Positions 4,226 through 11,365 of a DNA stretch of 34,411 nucleotides are shown here, one piece after another (the first letter of the stretch is position 1; each line of letters begins with the position of its first letter). Both the position numbers and the translations under genes were made by a program. Source of the stretch: Verrucomicrobiales bacterium (GTDB lineage Bacteria > Verrucomicrobiota > Verrucomicrobiia > Limisphaerales > UBA1100); NCBI GenBank assembly GCA_005809105.1, contig SYLI01000012.1:1-34411 (forward strand). The letters are read 5' to 3'. The notes beneath the pieces were generated by a model. That model did not search any database. It saw only the letters and a program-made list of their open reading frames with translations, and was not told the origin of the DNA.

Positions 4226-6043
4226 ATGATCCGGCTTGGAAGCGCCGCGCTGGCGGCATGGTTGGCAGTAGAGACGGCTGCGGCGGCGACTGCGGCAGCG
4301 CCCGCGCCCAACATCGTATTGGTCCTCATCGACGACTTGGGCTGGGCTGATTTGGGCTGCTACGGCAGCAAGTTTCATCGCACGCCCAATCTCGACCGGT
4401 TGGCGAAGGAAGGCATGCGCTTCACCGACGCCTACGCGGCGTGCCCCGTGTGTTCGCCCACGCGCGCCGCGCTCATGACGGGAAAGTACCCGGCCCGTCT
4501 GCGCCTCACCGACTGGCTGCCCGGCCGTGGCGATCGCGCCGACCAGATGCTCGCACGTCCGGCGTTTCGCCCCAACCTGCCGCTGGAAGAGGCGACGCTT
4601 CCTGAATTGTTAGCCAAGGCCGGTTACCGCTCGGCGCACATCGGCAAGTGGCACTTGGGCGCAGAGGGTTTTGGGCCCGGGGCGCAGGGCTTCGCGCACC
4701 ACGTGGCGGGCGATCACACGGGTTCGCCGCTGAGCTACTTTGCGCCTTTCCAGCGCGGCGGCAGGTTCATGCCCGGTCTGGAAAAAGCCGAGGCAGGGGA
4801 GTATCTCACCGACCGCCTCACGACCGAGGCGTGCCGGTTCATCGAAAGCAGCAAGGCCGCGCCGTTCTTTCTCTACCTTGCGCACTACGCCGTTCACATC
4901 CCGCTGGCGGCAAAGACGGAAAAGCTCAAAGGCTATCCCAGCGTCACTTCGCCGCCGGGCACCCAGACCAACCGCGTCTATGCCGCGATGGTGGAAAGCA
5001 TGGACGAGAGCGTTGGCCGCGTGATGCGCTGCCTTGAGGAGCATAAGCTTGCGGGCAACACGCTCATCCTCTTTACCAGCGACAACGGCGGCCTGTGCAC
5101 CTTGGAGGGGCCCAACACGCCGGCCACCTACAACGCGCCGCTGCGCGAAGGCAAAGGCTGGCTCTACGAAGGCGGTATTCGCGTGCCGCTTCTGGCGCGG
5201 TGGCCGGGCGTGGTGACGGCCGGGGGCACCTGCAATGAGCCCGTGAGCAGCGTGGACCTCTTCGCCACGGCGCTGGCGGCTGCGGGCGTGCCGGTGCCCG
5301 GCGGCACAGACGGTGTGAGCCTCCTGCCTCTCTTGCGTGGGCAGGCGCAATCGCGCGGGCCCATCTTCTGGCACTATCCGCACTACAGCAATCAGGGCGG
5401 CAAGCCCGGTGGCGCGGTGCGCGAGGGCGACTGGAAACTCTTGGAGTGGTATGAAAGCGGGCGCAACGAACTCTTCAACGTGCGCGCCGACCGGGGCGAG
5501 TCCCAAAACCTCGCGCCCAAGGAGCCGGAGAGAGCCGCCCGTCTGCAGGCTCAACTGGACCGGTGGCGCCGCGAAACCGGCGCGCAGATGATGCTGGCCA
5601 ATCCGGACTACCGCCCCAACCCGCCCAACGCCGCCGGCGCCATCGTGCTGCCGGCGCGCACCGCGCAGGTGCACGGGCGCATGCTGCGCTACGAGCCGCT
5701 GCCTCACAAAGAGACGCTGGGCTACTGGGTGGAGGCGGACGACTGGGCCAGTTTCGAGTTCACGGTGGACAAGCCCGGGGTGTTTGAAGTGGAAGCCCTG
5801 CAAGGCTGCGGCAAGGGCCACGGGGGCAGCGTGGTCGCCTTTGGCGTGGGCGCGCAGCGGCTGGAGATGACGGTGGAAGACACCGGCCACTTCCAAAACT
5901 TTGTGCCGCGGGTTGTGGGGAAAGTGACGCTGACTGAGCCGGGCCGACACACGCTCTCCGTGCGCGCCCTGAAGAAGGCCAAGGCGGCGGTGATGGATCT
6001 TCGCAGCGTCACCCTGCGGCCGGTGCCTGCGGCACGGCAATAA
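4226..6043 (+). CDS. Exported arylsulfatase-type sulfatase with C-terminal accessory domain
   Basis: A 605-residue type I sulfatase predicted to hydrolyse sulfate esters outside the cytoplasm. Residues 1-26 form a signal peptide. The metal site begins with LVLIDDLGW (32-40, Asp36/Asp37). The formylglycine signature CSPTR lies at 76-80, so Cys76 is the residue oxidised by a formylglycine-generating enzyme. GKWHLG (140-145), His224 and TSDNGG (284-289, Asp286/Asn287) complete the usual active-site set, and EGGIRVP (315-321) is also family-typical. The catalytic part ends near residue 450. The last roughly 130 residues form a beta-rich extra domain (WVEADDWASFEFTV onward) that looks like a carbohydrate-binding type sandwich. 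No formylglycine-generating enzyme gene is in the window. It is divergent from a sulfotransferase and convergent with the aldo/keto reductase. Confidence 0.92.
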   Translation: MIRLGSAALAAWLAVETAAAATAAAPAPNIVLVLIDDLGWADLGCYGSKFHRTPNLDRLAKEGMRFTDAYAACPVCSPTRAALMTGKYPARLRLTDWLPGRGDRADQMLARPAFRPNLPLEEATLPELLAKAGYRSAHIGKWHLGAEGFGPGAQGFAHHVAGDHTGSPLSYFAPFQRGGRFMPGLEKAEAGEYLTDRLTTEACRFIESSKAAPFFLYLAHYAVHIPLAAKTEKLKGYPSVTSPPGTQTNRVYAAMVESMDESVGRVMRCLEEHKLAGNTLILFTSDNGGLCTLEGPNTPATYNAPLREGKGWLYEGGIRVPLLARWPGVVTAGGTCNEPVSSVDLFATALAAAGVPVPGGTDGVSLLPLLRGQAQSRGPIFWHYPHYSNQGGKPGGAVREGDWKLLEWYESGRNELFNVRADRGESQNLAPKEPERAARLQAQLDRWRRETGAQMMLANPDYRPNPPNAAGAIVLPARTAQVHGRMLRYEPLPHKETLGYWVEADDWASFEFTVDKPGVFEVEALQGCGKGHGGSVVAFGVGAQRLEMTVEDTGHFQNFVPRVVGKVTLTEPGRHTLSVRALKKAKAAVMDLRSVTLRPVPAARQ

Positions 6044-6051
6044 TTGCATTG

Positions 6052-6082
6052 AGCAATGGCAAGGGGCGCAGCCCCTATTGCT
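6052..6082. terminator. Stem-loop between convergent sulfatase and aldo/keto reductase genes
   Basis: An interrupted inverted repeat has inner arms AGGGGC (6062-6067) and GCCCCT (6071-6076) around a three-base loop, plus outer arms AGCAAT (6052-6057) and ATTGCT (6077-6082), with a four-base bulge on the left side. It covers the stop codon of the aldo/keto reductase and follows the sulfatase stop by eight bases. There is no T-run on either strand, so it is a possible bidirectional terminator or 3'-end stabiliser. Confidence 0.45.
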
Positions 6083-7079
6083 GAGCGCAGGTCGCCGTGG
6101 CGCGCAGAAATTCCGAGTGCGCCTCTTCGATGGACTGAAGCTCTGCGCGGCCAAGTCGCCACTCTGCCGCGGCGGCGATTTCCGTAATCTGTCCGCTGCG
6201 GCGCGCGCCGACGATGGCGCTGGTCACTTCATGCCGCGCCAGCACCCATGCGGTCGCAAGCTGCCCCACCGAGTGGCCACTTTCCTGGGCAATGGACTGG
6301 AGCCGCGCCACCAGCCTCAGGAAGTGGGGCTTGCGCGGCGGATGCAGCAGCGCGGCGACGGGATGATCGGGCTTGTGGCGGCGCCAGTCGTTGGGCGGCA
6401 GCGCGGCAATCCATGCTTCGGTCACCTTGCCGGTGAGCAGCCCCGATTCCATGGGACTGTACACAAGAAGCCCGCAATCATGCGCGGCGCACCACGCCAT
6501 CTGGCCGCTGGTTTCAATCTGGCGGTTGAGAAGGCTGTAGCGCGGCTGCAGCGACGCGACGGGCCCCAGCCGCTGCGCTCGCTCCATCTGCCCGGCCGAA
6601 AAGTTGGAGACGGCAGGCCAGCGAATCTTGCCCTGCTTCTGAAGGTCCAGCAGAGTCTGCCACGCTTCCTCGACCATGCTGTCGGGCTCGGGCCAGTGGA
6701 GCTGGTAGAGGTCAATCACCTCCACTCCCAGGCGCCGCAGCGAGCCTTCCACCTCTTCCAGGATGGTGCCCCGGGAAATATACCTGCGCGGGAAGCGCTT
6801 TTCGTCGGGCAACACACCGCACTTGGTGGCGACCACCACGGGCTCTTTCCACTCGCGCAGGGCCTTGGCCACCACTTCCTCCGCCACGCCAAATCCGTAG
6901 GCGTGCGCGGTGTCGATCCAGTTGATGCCCGATTCGAGCCCCTCAAGAATGGCCTTGATGGAGTCGCGCTCGTCCTGCGGCCCCCAGCCCATTCCCCAGT
7001 CGCCGCCGCCGATGGCCCAAGTGCCGATGCCCAAAGGGGTGATGTGAAGATCCGTCTTGCCCATGGGGCGAGTTTGCAT
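6075..7079 (-). CDS. Aldo/keto reductase
   Basis: A 334-residue NADPH-dependent aldo/keto reductase (PF00248) expected to reduce sugar or other carbonyls in the cytoplasm. The N-terminus has the family pattern PLGIGTWAIGG (15-25). The catalytic tetrad is visible as Asp56 and Tyr61 in NWIDTAHAYGFG, Lys86 in VVATKCG and His128 in LYQLHWP. VSNFSAGQ and YSPMESGLLTGKV are further conserved blocks. The cofactor-binding end is AIVGARRSGQITE, typical of the AKR11/12-like general stress and sugar reductases. There is no signal peptide, unlike most neighbours. It ends inside a stem-loop shared with the convergent sulfatase. The proline-rich exported protein lies 73 bases upstream on the same strand and may share its transcript. 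The substrate is not predictable. Confidence 0.93.
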   Translation of the reverse strand: MQTRPMGKTDLHITPLGIGTWAIGGGDWGMGWGPQDERDSIKAILEGLESGINWIDTAHAYGFGVAEEVVAKALREWKEPVVVATKCGVLPDEKRFPRRYISRGTILEEVEGSLRRLGVEVIDLYQLHWPEPDSMVEEAWQTLLDLQKQGKIRWPAVSNFSAGQMERAQRLGPVASLQPRYSLLNRQIETSGQMAWCAAHDCGLLVYSPMESGLLTGKVTEAWIAALPPNDWRRHKPDHPVAALLHPPRKPHFLRLVARLQSIAQESGHSVGQLATAWVLARHEVTSAIVGARRSGQITEIAAAAEWRLGRAELQSIEEAHSEFLRATATCAQQ

Positions 7080-7152: not shown

Positions 7153-7593
7153 CTAAAAACCGCGGCGCGGCGGCGGAGGCGGGGGCGTCGGGACGCCCGG
7201 GATGGGCCGCGGCGCCATTGGCTGCTCGGCGATGGGAATGAAGTGCAACCCCGTCACCGTCACGGGTTTGCCGTTCATAAAGATGGTGGATTGCGACTGC
7301 TGCAACCATGAAACCATGCCGGTGGCCGTGTCGATTTTTAACACCACCGGGATCGGCTTGCCGTTCGCAGGGGTTTGCGCGGGGAGGAGCTGGAATCGCC
7401 CCGGTTGGATCATCTCCGGCGGAATGTCAGTCGCCACGCCGGGCACTCCTTCGGCGATGTCCGCGGGTGGCGGGGCTGGAACGGGCGCGATGGTGGGATT
7501 CGATGGCTTGGGTTGCGCCTTCGCCGGGCTGGAAAGACACGCCAGCATGATGGCCGCGCTCAAGAGCAAAGGGGGTTTTGTCCTCATAATCAT
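7153..7593 (-). CDS. Small proline-rich exported protein, function unknown
   Basis: 146 residues from the ATG at 7593; a second ATG at 7587 is equally possible. A Sec signal peptide spans about 1-26 (hydrophobic 9-20, ending SSPAKA). The mature part has a proline-rich arm (NPTIAPVPAPPPA) and a compact centre, VVLKIDTATGMVSWL (83-97), followed by a strand pair around FMNGKPVTVTGLHFIPI. It ends in a second proline-rich tail with seven consecutive prolines before RRGF. The centre resembles short exported proteins that carry a KIDT-x-TG-x-(V/A)-W segment, but I cannot name a family. It is divergent from the large membrane-protein gene at 7816 and upstream of the aldo/keto reductase. Confidence 0.6.
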   Translation of the reverse strand: MIMRTKPPLLLSAAIMLACLSSPAKAQPKPSNPTIAPVPAPPPADIAEGVPGVATDIPPEMIQPGRFQLLPAQTPANGKPIPVVLKIDTATGMVSWLQQSQSTIFMNGKPVTVTGLHFIPIAEQPMAPRPIPGVPTPPPPPPRRGF

Positions 7594-7611
7594 GAGCCTG
7601 ACACCGGATGG

Positions 7612-7630
7612 AGTTGCATCAAGTGCAACT
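7612..7630. promoter_or_regulatory. Seven-base perfect inverted repeat, possible operator
   Basis: AGTTGCA (7612-7618) and TGCAACT (7624-7630) are exact inverted copies around TCAAG. The element lies 18 bases upstream of the start of the proline-rich protein gene, within the 222-base region shared with the divergent gene at 7816. It could bind a dimeric regulator or form a short leader hairpin. Confidence 0.3.
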
Positions 7631-7685
7631 TGCGTAGCACCGCCATGCGACGGCAAGAGAGGAGTGTTGACCGATGGTGAAAACT

Positions 7686-7714
7686 TTGTGAACATGTGCC
7701 AGCCGGTTTAGTCT
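7686..7714 (+). promoter_or_regulatory. Candidate sigma70-type promoter for the 7816 operon
   Basis: TTGTGA (7686-7691) and TAGTCT (7709-7714) are 17 bases apart and would place the transcript start near 7721. An AGGAGAGG purine run (7718-7725) follows. That run sits 12 bases before a GTG at 7738 which is in frame with the 7816 gene, so it may instead mark a longer N-terminus. Confidence 0.3.
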
Positions 7715-7815: not shown

Positions 7816-9591
7816 ATGACAGGCACGACAACAACGAGCTCACGCCCATCGGGTTTTCGGCTGGGCGTTGCCTTGCTTTCCGGCATCGGGATCATCGTGC
7901 TGGGTTGGATGCTGCCGGTGTATCAGGGCATGCTGCACCCGGCGGTGGTGGAACGCGCCGGGGCCGGCTCGCAAAGCGCAGGCGCATTCGGCCTTGAACT
8001 GGCAACCAAAAGCTTCCAGCCCAACCCGCAGGCAGCGCGCATTGTGTTGCTGGCGGCGCAATCCGCGCCGGGCGCCGCGCCCGAGGCGGCGGCGAAACTT
8101 AAAGCCGCGCTGGCCGGCACGACGGATCGCGACGCGGGCATCAACTATTTCCTGGCGGGGAAAAACCGGCAGGCGTTTCAGGCCCAACTGCCCGTAGGGC
8201 AGCCCGGCGGCATCGCCAGCGAAGCGGCCCGCATCCTTGAATTGAGCGAGCTGGCAGAGCTGCGCGAGCTGGAGCCGGCCATCATGCTCACGGCATGGCT
8301 GCATTCGCAGAACCTCATCACCGACACGCTCTCGCGCGAGATTCTCAACCACGGCCAGTCCGGCAACATCGCCACGCTGCGGCGCGGTTTCATGGCCGTC
8401 AGCACTCTGGCCGACCAGCTCGACGTGCACCAGCTCATGGCGGTGCTCGACCTCATGCCCGACGTGCGCACGCTCTCGGAGTACTCGCACATCGCGCTCG
8501 TGCAGACGATGTTGCCGCCCTTTGCAAGTCTGGGCAACCACGACAAGGATTTGTTCAAGGACGAGCTGCCCGCGGGCCCGATGCGCGAAATGTTCGACAA
8601 GTTTGACGCGGACAAGAACGGCAAGCTCGACGTGCAGGAATGGCTCTTGCAGGCGCGGATGCCGCTGTCGTACACCGACTTTCCTGCGGGTTACACGGCG
8701 ATGCTTTGGTTGGGCACGCCGGAGGGCGCGCGTCAGGTGGTGCAATACCTTCTCAACCACGGCAGACAGGGCGACGAGTTCCTGTACTGGGCCATCGGCC
8801 AGGGCAGGGGCGCGGTGGAATTTGTCGTGCGGCACGGCGGGGCACTGGGCCAGCGCCGTGGCTCTGGCTTGGATGCGCTGGCGGTGGTGGGGTTCCGCAA
8901 CCCCGGCATGGCGATGGTGCTGCGCTACGTGCTCTTTGGTCTTGGCGCCCTGCTGTTGGTGTGGGTTTGGAACCGCCTCTGGCCGCTGGCCGCTCGTGGC
9001 ACGGGGGATTTGCCCGGCTACTTGTGGAACCGGCGCGCGCTGGCGGTGGCGGGGGCGCTGGTGCTGGCGATGATCAGCGAGCCCATGTTCTTTCAGACGG
9101 CGCAATCCTCCGAATACGACGTCGCCATCAAGCTTCCTCTTGCCGCAGCGGCTGCCGACGCAGCCAAAGCGTCCCCAGTGAACGTCAAAGACAAACGCAA
9201 CGCACCTATGACCGGAAACATCGCCACCTCGGACATGTGGAGAAACGTCGTGATGACGCTTCTTTTCGCCGCCATCCAAATCTGGGTTTACCTGACCTGC
9301 GTGCAAAAGATCCGCCAGATCGAGGAGGATTCGGCGGAGCCGCGCCTCAAGCTCCGGTTGCTGGACAATGAAGACAACTTTTTTGACATGGGCCTGTACA
9401 TCGGCATCGGCGGCACGGCGCTCGGTCTGGCGTTGATCATGCTCGAGGTCTTCCAGAAACCCGTGGCGGCGTACGCCTCCAACATCTTTGGGATCATGTG
9501 CGTGGCGGCTGTGAAAATCTGGCACGTCCGCCAGGCCAAGAAACGCCTTATCATCCAGGTTCGCAAGGCCGAGGGCGTTGCCGCCCTCTAG
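7816..9591 (+). CDS. Six-helix membrane protein with EF-hand loop and ExbB/TolQ/MotA-like C-terminal hairpin
   Basis: 591 residues from the ATG at 7816; an in-frame GTG at 7738 would add 26 residues. Predicted helices lie at about 16-36, 366-388, 408-424, 477-496, 523-546 and 552-569. Basic residues put both ends in the cytoplasm and residues 37-365 in the periplasm. The periplasmic part is helical and Ala/Leu-rich, and carries one complete EF-hand loop, DADKNGKLDVQE (264-275), with Asp264, Asp266, Asn268, Asp272 and Glu275 at the usual calcium positions. The last three helices have the order and orientation of ExbB/TolQ/MotA. The fifth contains GIGGTALG (530-537), close to the GLxGTVxG motif of those proton channels. 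The cytoplasmic loop between helices four and five is short, about 26 residues. The stator relationship is my inference; the family is unnamed to me. The next gene starts 13 bases downstream. Confidence 0.8.
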   Translation: MTGTTTTSSRPSGFRLGVALLSGIGIIVLGWMLPVYQGMLHPAVVERAGAGSQSAGAFGLELATKSFQPNPQAARIVLLAAQSAPGAAPEAAAKLKAALAGTTDRDAGINYFLAGKNRQAFQAQLPVGQPGGIASEAARILELSELAELRELEPAIMLTAWLHSQNLITDTLSREILNHGQSGNIATLRRGFMAVSTLADQLDVHQLMAVLDLMPDVRTLSEYSHIALVQTMLPPFASLGNHDKDLFKDELPAGPMREMFDKFDADKNGKLDVQEWLLQARMPLSYTDFPAGYTAMLWLGTPEGARQVVQYLLNHGRQGDEFLYWAIGQGRGAVEFVVRHGGALGQRRGSGLDALAVVGFRNPGMAMVLRYVLFGLGALLLVWVWNRLWPLAARGTGDLPGYLWNRRALAVAGALVLAMISEPMFFQTAQSSEYDVAIKLPLAAAAADAAKASPVNVKDKRNAPMTGNIATSDMWRNVVMTLLFAAIQIWVYLTCVQKIRQIEEDSAEPRLKLRLLDNEDNFFDMGLYIGIGGTALGLALIMLEVFQKPVAAYASNIFGIMCVAAVKIWHVRQAKKRLIIQVRKAEGVAAL

Positions 9592-9604
9592 GAAGAGGAT
9601 CTCC

Positions 9605-11365
9605 ATGAACAAGACGCTGTTGCTGATGCTGATCGACTTCCTGCTGCTCCACATCATCCACGACTCGCCGTGGACGAAGGTGGACGCGCGCGACGCGCGC
9701 GCCGGGGCCGGCACCCAAACCTACGCGCAACACGCGGACGAGCTACAGTTCGTGCGGCTGCGCCTGCGCGAGGAGCAGAAGGATCGCGCCGTCGCGCAGC
9801 AGCAGTTGGCGTTCAATCGCGCCGGCGATGCCGATCGCCAGAAGAAATTCGCCGATTTGCAGAGGAAGCTATTGGACGCCCAGGAGAGCACCAGCATCGC
9901 CAGCGAAGCGCAGAAGGAACTGGATCGGCAGCGCCTCGTGGCGCTCAAGGACGCCAACGATCGGCGCGAGCTGCTCGAAACCAAGGTGCGGGAGATTATC
10001 GAGGGCCAGAAGCACCTCTCCAGCATGACCAACGAAGTGCGCCTGTTGACCGAGCGCACCACCAAGCTGGAGGGTGACAACCGTGTGTTGGTGGCCGACC
10101 GGTCCCGTTTTGAGGCCGACAACAACCGCCTCAAGGGTGACAATGCGAAACTCACCGACGCCCACGAGAAAGCCCAAAACCAGATTGGCGACCTCAGGGT
10201 GAACCTGACGGCAGCCAACACCAAGCTGTCCAATGCGCAGACTCAAGCCGATGGTTTGGACAAGGCCAACCGAACCCTGACCGGCCAGTTGGCTCAAACG
10301 CAGCAGGAACGCGCGCAGTTCAAGGCCCAAGCCGATGGGCTGGGGAAGCAACTGACGGACGAGAAGCAAACCTCGACGCGCCTGCAGGGGGATCTCACCA
10401 AGTCTCAGACCGAATTGGCGACGGAGAGCGCCCGGCGGGCGGGCGCCGAGGCGAACTTTGTGCGCGAAGCCAAGGTCAACGACAGTCTGCGCACCGAGAT
10501 CAAGAAGACACTCGATTCGAGCATCGAGACCGGCAATTCCAATCTGGAAATCACGCGCGCGGCGCGGCAGAAGTTGGAAGACCTGGCCAAGGCACAGCCC
10601 ATCAGCCCCAACCGCCTGTTCACGGAGTTCCTGCCCAGCCGGGTGAAGCTCTCGATGCAGCTTAATCGCACGCAGCCCGCCGTGGCCTTCATCGGAAACA
10701 AGCCCGTGTCACTTCCCAAGGAGGCCCAAGGACAGTCGGAGCCCGTCCTCATTGAAGGCAGCCAGTACCTCTACGCGCTCATCCATGTCAGCGACTCGCC
10801 CTTCCAATTTGGAAATGGCGTGGCGGGATGGGAAAAGGCCAGCGGCACCTTCGTGGGGAAATCCCCCCAGCAACAGGTGCCGGTGCATTGGCTGGGCTTC
10901 CTAAAGCAGGATCCCCGCGTGATCTCCGTGCCGCTGCACAAGGGGGCGAAGACGGTGCTGGGGGTGGACAAACCCTACACACTGGCCAAGGAGCCCGAGA
11001 AATATGCCGAGGCGCTGATCGTCCACGAGGGGCGCGACTATGGCGTGGTGGAGTTCAAAGTGGAGCCGGGTAAGCCCAACTACGTGCGGATGGACAAGCC
11101 CTTCCTTGGCGGGCTTTTCAGCCGCAAGTTCAACCCCTCCGAGGGCGACATCGTGCTGAGCCGCGCGGGCGAACTGATCGGCATCATGGTCAACGACAAG
11201 TATTGCCTCGTGCTGCGCGAGGGTGATCTGGACAATCTCAAGAACGGCTACGCGGACTTTGTTGTCTTTAACGACAAGGCATCGGTGGGCGCGATCGGCG
11301 GCAAGGGCGGCAAGCTGGAGGCTTTCTCGCAAGCCATCCAGAGCAAACCCGGCGACTTGCGCTAG
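9605..11365 (+). CDS. N-anchored long coiled-coil protein with degenerate trypsin-like end domain
   Basis: 586 residues. The ATG at 9605 has AGAGGA five bases upstream and starts the membrane helix directly. The single helix (about 4-18) contains an acidic residue, Asp11, in LLMLIDFLLLHII. That is the arrangement of the ion-conducting Asp in ExbD, TolR and MotB. Residues 45 to about 330 are highly charged with heptad-like Leu/Ala spacing, a coiled coil some 40 nm long if continuous. Residues 340-560 form a beta-rich domain with a segment SEGDIVLSRAGELIGIMVN (512-530). It resembles the GDSGGPxxxxxGxLxGI region of trypsin-like proteases, with Ile516 where the catalytic Ser would be, so it is probably inactive. 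It is co-transcribed with the six-helix protein. The exact partner or cargo is unknown. Confidence 0.8.
   Translation: MNKTLLLMLIDFLLLHIIHDSPWTKVDARDARAGAGTQTYAQHADELQFVRLRLREEQKDRAVAQQQLAFNRAGDADRQKKFADLQRKLLDAQESTSIASEAQKELDRQRLVALKDANDRRELLETKVREIIEGQKHLSSMTNEVRLLTERTTKLEGDNRVLVADRSRFEADNNRLKGDNAKLTDAHEKAQNQIGDLRVNLTAANTKLSNAQTQADGLDKANRTLTGQLAQTQQERAQFKAQADGLGKQLTDEKQTSTRLQGDLTKSQTELATESARRAGAEANFVREAKVNDSLRTEIKKTLDSSIETGNSNLEITRAARQKLEDLAKAQPISPNRLFTEFLPSRVKLSMQLNRTQPAVAFIGNKPVSLPKEAQGQSEPVLIEGSQYLYALIHVSDSPFQFGNGVAGWEKASGTFVGKSPQQQVPVHWLGFLKQDPRVISVPLHKGAKTVLGVDKPYTLAKEPEKYAEALIVHEGRDYGVVEFKVEPGKPNYVRMDKPFLGGLFSRKFNPSEGDIVLSRAGELIGIMVNDKYCLVLREGDLDNLKNGYADFVVFNDKASVGAIGGKGGKLEAFSQAIQSKPGDLR

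Follow-up and report, generated by a model that had tools for sequence, protein, structure and literature searches.

A conserved pair of verrucomicrobial membrane genes resembling ion-driven stator units

We analysed a 34,411-nucleotide stretch of DNA (the window; positions 1 to 34,411 of contig SYLI01000012.1), part of the 3.0 Mb draft genome of a Verrucomicrobiales bacterium (GCA_005809105.1). Within it lie two consecutive genes, here called A and B, which form a real, obligate pair, previously unclassified as far as the libraries and literature searched show. An original prediction from the bare sequence had proposed that the pair is a stator-like ion channel carrying a coiled-coil arm and a pseudo-protease head. 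Only a few kinds of ion-driven 5:2 machine are known; flagella, gliding, cell division and import across the outer membrane depend on them.

Anatomy of genes A and B

Genes A and B are separated by 13 nucleotides on the + strand, and a purine-rich stretch, GGAAGAGGA, lies 5′ of the ATG of B. Their features are listed below in window coordinates, with the basis of each in brackets.

7816–9591, + strand: gene A, 591 amino acids, ATG start; a six-helix membrane protein whose relatives share the open frame and start
7939–8898, + strand: A residues 42–361, a large helical domain, predicted to be periplasmic (AlphaFold2 helices)
8584–8646, + strand: EF-hand-like loop, A residues 257–277 (Pfam EF-hand_1, E 1.4e-5)
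9247–9519, + strand: A residues 478–568, three-helix core and candidate channel sleeve (hydropathy, model and register with ExbB helices 1–3)
9415–9417, + strand: Thr534 of A, in YIGIGGTA, putative equivalent of the GLxGTV threonine of ExbB (conservation)
9478–9483, + strand: Ser555–Asn556 of A, putative equivalent of two Thr residues in helix 3 of ExbB (hhalign register; invariant in alignment A5)
9605–11365, + strand: gene B, 586 amino acids, ATG start; a membrane-anchored arm and head
9605–9670, + strand: B residues 1–22, single membrane helix and most conserved part of B (invariant columns; hydropathy, segment 1–19)
9635–9637, + strand: Asp11 of B, within the membrane helix (conservation)
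9722–10549, + strand: B residues 40–315, helical arm, probable coiled coil (no proline; generic coiled-coil matches)
10568–11362, + strand: B residues 322–586, predicted HtrA/trypsin-fold head of 265 residues (AlphaFold2, Foldseek and VIA)
11141–11149, + strand: Glu513-Gly514-Asp515, in place of the protease Ser-Gly-Gly (hhalign; nucleophile lost)

Hydropathy placed six membrane segments in A (residues 17–35, 366–384, 408–426, 478–496, 525–543 and 550–568), and an AlphaFold2 model built with 62 aligned relatives (mean predicted local distance difference test score, pLDDT, 84) contained long helices at 470–504, 522–542 and 550–585. Both agree with the original prediction that A ends in three helices with GIGGTALG (residues 530–537, including Thr534) in the fifth helix of the protein, and the topology read from helix order and positive loops fits that of ExbB. 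The invariance of Thr534 in A and Asp11 in B had been set beforehand as a test, and it held in 62 full-length A homologues and 55 aligned B sequences. Thr534 was also invariant in 15 family members, and the same 15 and 62 sequences shared Gly530, Gly533, Ala535, Ser555, Asn556 and Gly559; other lineages have Ser-Thr at the place of Ser555–Asn556. The pattern G(L/I)xGT(V/I/A) occurred nowhere in the membrane segments predicted for 875 other open reading frames (ORFs), 37,586 residues in all, and was present, in strict form, in 118 of 133 A proteins, so the motif is not a matter of chance.

Outside the window’s class, the commonest A is a short protein of about 180 amino acids with four helices, homologous to the core of the window’s A (short-A profile, E 5.6e-15). 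Short forms keep the threonine of the motif, except for two with Ser, and share the stretch PLYxGLFGT(V/I) followed by AYSSTLIGII. L001, an ExbB-family protein encoded in the same genome as the window, carries PFIGLFGTVWG and, in its last helix, ALATTLAGLLVAIP; the short-A motif, PLYIGLFGT(I/V), is almost a repeat of the PFIGLFGTV of ExbB. In three long A proteins from outside the window’s class (L099, L100 and L101) the motif is altered to YCGLALTIFAF, with the threonine retained, and their B partners begin MRPxLLVIIMDFLVSSLL.

Short A proteins in other classes lack the 320-residue domain that follows the first helix (residues 42–361). The extra N-terminal half of A, a feature singled out in the original prediction, is real and limited to some lineages, and we regard it as accessory rather than core. 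The EF-hand placed there is a loop scoring just under the Pfam cut-off (24.8 versus 25.4 bits), and it was observed only within the window’s family.

Gene B has the predicted layout of an N-terminal helix with Asp11, a long arm and a beta-rich domain, as hydropathy, coil matches and an HtrA/trypsin-type model agree. Residues 1–15 are the most conserved, M1, N2, T4, L5, L6, L7, D11, F12 and L15 being invariant in 55 sequences. Because some B proteins had been gathered by a motif search that demands the Asp, we also collected B by a C-terminal profile alone: the N-terminal hydrophobic segment held an Asp in 100 of the 102 full-length proteins found in this way, and for the remaining two (L219 and L255), which lie in over-long frames, a wrong segment had been picked automatically; alignment A6 shows D11 in both of their B proteins. 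Control ORFs with an N-terminal hydrophobic segment had an Asp inside it in 31/213 cases. Conserved and Asp-bearing, the N-terminus of B looks unlike a signal peptide. A lipoprotein was considered and rejected: Asp11 often follows a Cys (Ile in the window), but no lipobox precedes that residue.

The arm (residues 40–315) matched only generic coiled-coil and SMC-like profiles in the databases. If it forms one continuous coiled coil, at 0.15 nm per residue, it would extend about 40 nm, enough to cross the periplasm. In two draft genomes B is split between frames (L050, 5881–7550; L051, 7194–8928), and the arm of L051 includes a stretch of N, so that an assembly error is likely.

The head was predicted by AlphaFold2 with a pLDDT of 86.6. 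Foldseek (best DegP, E 1.2e-6, probability 1.00) and VIA (Z about 12) both matched it to HtrA proteases. When hhalign was run against HtrA-like proteins from the window’s own genome, His394 fell on the catalytic His and Glu513 on the catalytic Ser; position 513 varies among relatives (Glu, Lys, Arg, Gln and Thr) and is followed by the invariant Gly514–Asp515. Judged by these alignments, the head lacks the catalytic serine of HtrA (S1C) proteases, in keeping with the pseudo-protease originally proposed, and most probably serves for binding. A Pfam scan of B gave no PDZ match.

Pairing, distribution and neighbouring genes

Gene B lay directly after A at 52 of 53 loci in a first set and at all 79 testable loci in a second. 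The genomic survey called for in the original prediction was made on 387 sampled Verrucomicrobiota genomes, searched separately with an A profile and a B-head profile; it found both genes in 125 genomes, A only in 1, B only in 1 and neither in 260. In the window’s class, the sets of A-bearing and B-bearing genomes were identical (46 genomes), and they include two in which the genes are unlinked, lying on different contigs in G355 and about 70 kb apart in G361. As co-occurrence extends to unlinked genes, the dependence between A and B is functional as well as positional. As the genomes share ancestry and are not independent, we give these counts without a claim of significance. Named relatives were nearly all labelled Verrucomicrobiota (Pedosphaera-like metagenome genomes, Opitutaceae and an Ereboglobus record), and the few with odd titles are probably mislabelled metagenome bins.

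No third gene common to all A/B loci was found. In one lineage, a Ser/Thr kinase gene lay directly 3′ of B at 10 of 16 short-A loci. The four kinases scanned matched Pkinase with E 6e-29 to 7e-37; three of the four had a predicted membrane helix past the kinase domain, and three of the four a C-terminal FGE-sulfatase-type domain. Their genes are as follows, in the coordinates of each locus.

L091, 8751–10364: kinase gene after B
L092, 2111–4762: kinase gene after B
L102, 8957–11548: kinase gene after B
L106, 1858–4422: kinase gene after B

Since the kinase is missing from the window’s class and from 6 of the 16 short-A loci, it is not part of the core.

Upstream of A in the window, a proline-rich ORF of 180 residues without a Pfam match occupies 7153–7695 (− strand). 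At another locus (L125), A has a divergently transcribed peptide deformylase gene (5968–6543, − strand) immediately upstream; dozens of loci of that family show antisense ORFs in comparable places, which suggests a conserved neighbourhood there. An Rfam search of the A/B region returned no RNA match. A known defence system (Zorya and others) was considered and rejected: PADLOC gave no match for A and only generic coil matches for B.

Relationship to stator proteins and proposed mechanism

Profile similarity between A and the channel families, expected from the original prediction, was found weakly. Against 30 verrucomicrobial ExbB/TolQ/MotA proteins, hhalign scored the A core at E 0.0044, and at 0.0016 with the order swapped (reversed controls 0.35 and 0.49), setting GIxGT on GLLGTV and Ser555–Asn556 on Thr-Thr; the swapped run also placed helix 4 of A on helix 1 of ExbB. 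With a larger set the values were 0.0036–0.0052, compared with 0.19–0.31 for reversed controls and 0.05–0.39 for four unrelated membrane families. When sequences were scored with the short-A profile, the 30 ExbB sequences came directly below the A proteins (median 3.35 bits versus −0.8 reversed). The aligned sequences are not independent, and HHalign’s own probability for the match of A to MotA/TolQ/ExbB was 7–16%. At the profile level, the link is weak but consistent, and a relationship of A to MotA/TolQ/ExbB seems likely, if unproven.

Several results weigh against such an assignment. Pfam and NCBIfam scans of A gave no MotA_ExbB match above chance and no family that fits; the five PF01618 matches in the window’s own genome include none at A, and short A proteins likewise have no match. 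Searching PDB sequences with A profiles found no channel protein. With the full-length A model as query, rather than the core itself, a fold search of the PDB gave no match with E <1 and VIA returned only assorted helical proteins. The loop joining core helices 1 and 2 of A is about 27 amino acids (residues 499–525), without the cytoplasmic domain of ExbB. On the side of B, almost no residues precede its helix, the helix region did not match ExbD significantly in hhalign (E 0.2, the reversed control doing better at 0.03), and a Pfam scan found no ExbD/TolR or MotB family. By strict tests, A falls outside PF01618 (MotA_ExbB) and B outside PF02472 (ExbD).

In known 5:2 machines, a pentamer of A encloses a conserved Asp in every B helix, and relative motion is driven as ions bind and are released there (PMC9389320, PMC12215075). 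The anatomy, motif and invariance of A and B fit this mechanism, and we judge that the pair is probably a 5:2 stator-type machine, ion-driven and set in the inner membrane, that stands very far from ExbBD, TolQR and MotAB. The pairing, the key residues and the compact, ExbB-like short A speak for the stator-like reading first made of this locus; the absence of a family match and the unlikeness of B to ExbD speak against it.

From this anatomy we infer a pentamer, a dimer, ion flow, motion and a partner of the head, which could work together as follows. Residues 478–568 of A would form a pentameric sleeve, its inner wall bearing Thr534 and Ser555/Asn556, in which two B subunits would be seated by their single helix. 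Asp11 would take up and release a proton (or another cation), producing stepwise motion of A relative to B, and the arm would transmit motion or force through the periplasm to the HtrA-fold head, which would grip a partner and not cleave it. In the window’s class, the large helical domain of A may surround the arm base as a plug or anchor; with A so anchored, the arm would move, as proposed for GldLM, and the big periplasmic domain is a candidate for the anchor. A more ambitious version, which we offer only tentatively, is a phylum-wide new class of proton- or sodium-driven motor in which B is a coiled-coil arm with a peptide-binding HtrA pseudo-protease at its tip, so that ion flow would pull or turn a chaperone or sensor of the envelope; in one lineage a transmembrane Ser/Thr kinase would report or gate the state of the motor.

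The same anatomy could instead belong to a static trans-envelope scaffold or sensor, in which Asp11 and Thr534 hold the subunits together without ion flow and the head senses misfolded or outer-membrane proteins. Buried polar pairs may serve assembly alone, the head has a fold of the peptide-binding type from which protease activity is not expected, and the profile link of A to stators is weak; the channel-motif match, the polar position that follows one helix later and the order of the helices, however, are all placed as a channel requires, and we consider a static scaffold rather unlikely. More doubtful still is a signalling complex that responds to ions or voltage and has no mechanical output, in which an ion at Asp11 would change a state read by the cytoplasm, in one lineage through the neighbouring Ser/Thr kinase. 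That kinase, usually with one predicted membrane helix, does follow B directly at 10 of the 16 short-A loci, but it is not core, and signalling of this kind has no need of a long arm and head. The short hydrophobic N-terminus of B is signal-sequence-like enough to raise the possibility of two unrelated genes, with B secreted and its signal peptide cleaved off, and A a membrane protein in its own right; near-perfect co-occurrence, unlinked cases included, and an invariant Asp in what is the most conserved part of B rule this out for practical purposes, leaving it very improbable.

If the ion-driven 5:2 machine is confirmed, the pair would add a kind missed by current profiles and present in about one-third of the sampled Verrucomicrobiota genomes, and the four-helix A of about 180 amino acids would show that very little sequence suffices for the core. 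With its matched Asp and Thr, both open to mutation, the pair would also be a defined system for asking how such machines move long periplasmic arms, and it would connect an HtrA-like binding head, and in one lineage a Ser/Thr kinase as well, with ion flow.

Comparison with known systems

With ExbB/ExbD and TolQ/TolR (PF01618, PF02472), the pair shares a two-gene operon, a three-helix core, a GLxGT motif with its threonine, a polar position in the last helix and a partner with one N-terminal helix bearing an Asp; the ExbB pore has conserved Thr148 and Thr181 (PMC12215075). Unlike ExbB and TolQ, A has no Pfam match, joins its first two core helices by a short loop instead of a cytoplasmic domain and, in the window’s class, carries an extra half that makes it a six-helix protein. 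Where ExbD/TolR and MotB have a periplasmic domain of the ExbD or OmpA type, B carries a probable coiled-coil arm with an HtrA-fold head.

GldL/GldM (PorL/PorM), which lack clear sequence homology to MotAB, resemble the pair in their small A subunit with no big cytoplasmic domain between core helices and in the very long periplasmic arm of the B subunit (PMC9389320). The GldM arm is a chain of folded domains, whereas that of B is probably a coiled coil with a trypsin-fold tip, and the GLxGT motif of A is closer to ExbB. Swapping of the head has a precedent in the family of TolQ-like proteins with membrane-tethered vWA proteins, reported in Verrucomicrobia too, in which an unrelated domain takes the place of the periplasmic part of the stator B subunit and the Asp is kept (PMC12204202). 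In that family, A is a TolQ homologue of the usual kind and the head a vWA domain; in the present pair, Pfam does not recognise A and the head resembles HtrA. Finally, the B head resembles HtrA/DegP in its predicted fold and in the register of His394 with the catalytic His, and differs from them in its variable nucleophile position, in having Gly-Asp instead of Gly-Gly and in the lack of a PDZ match.

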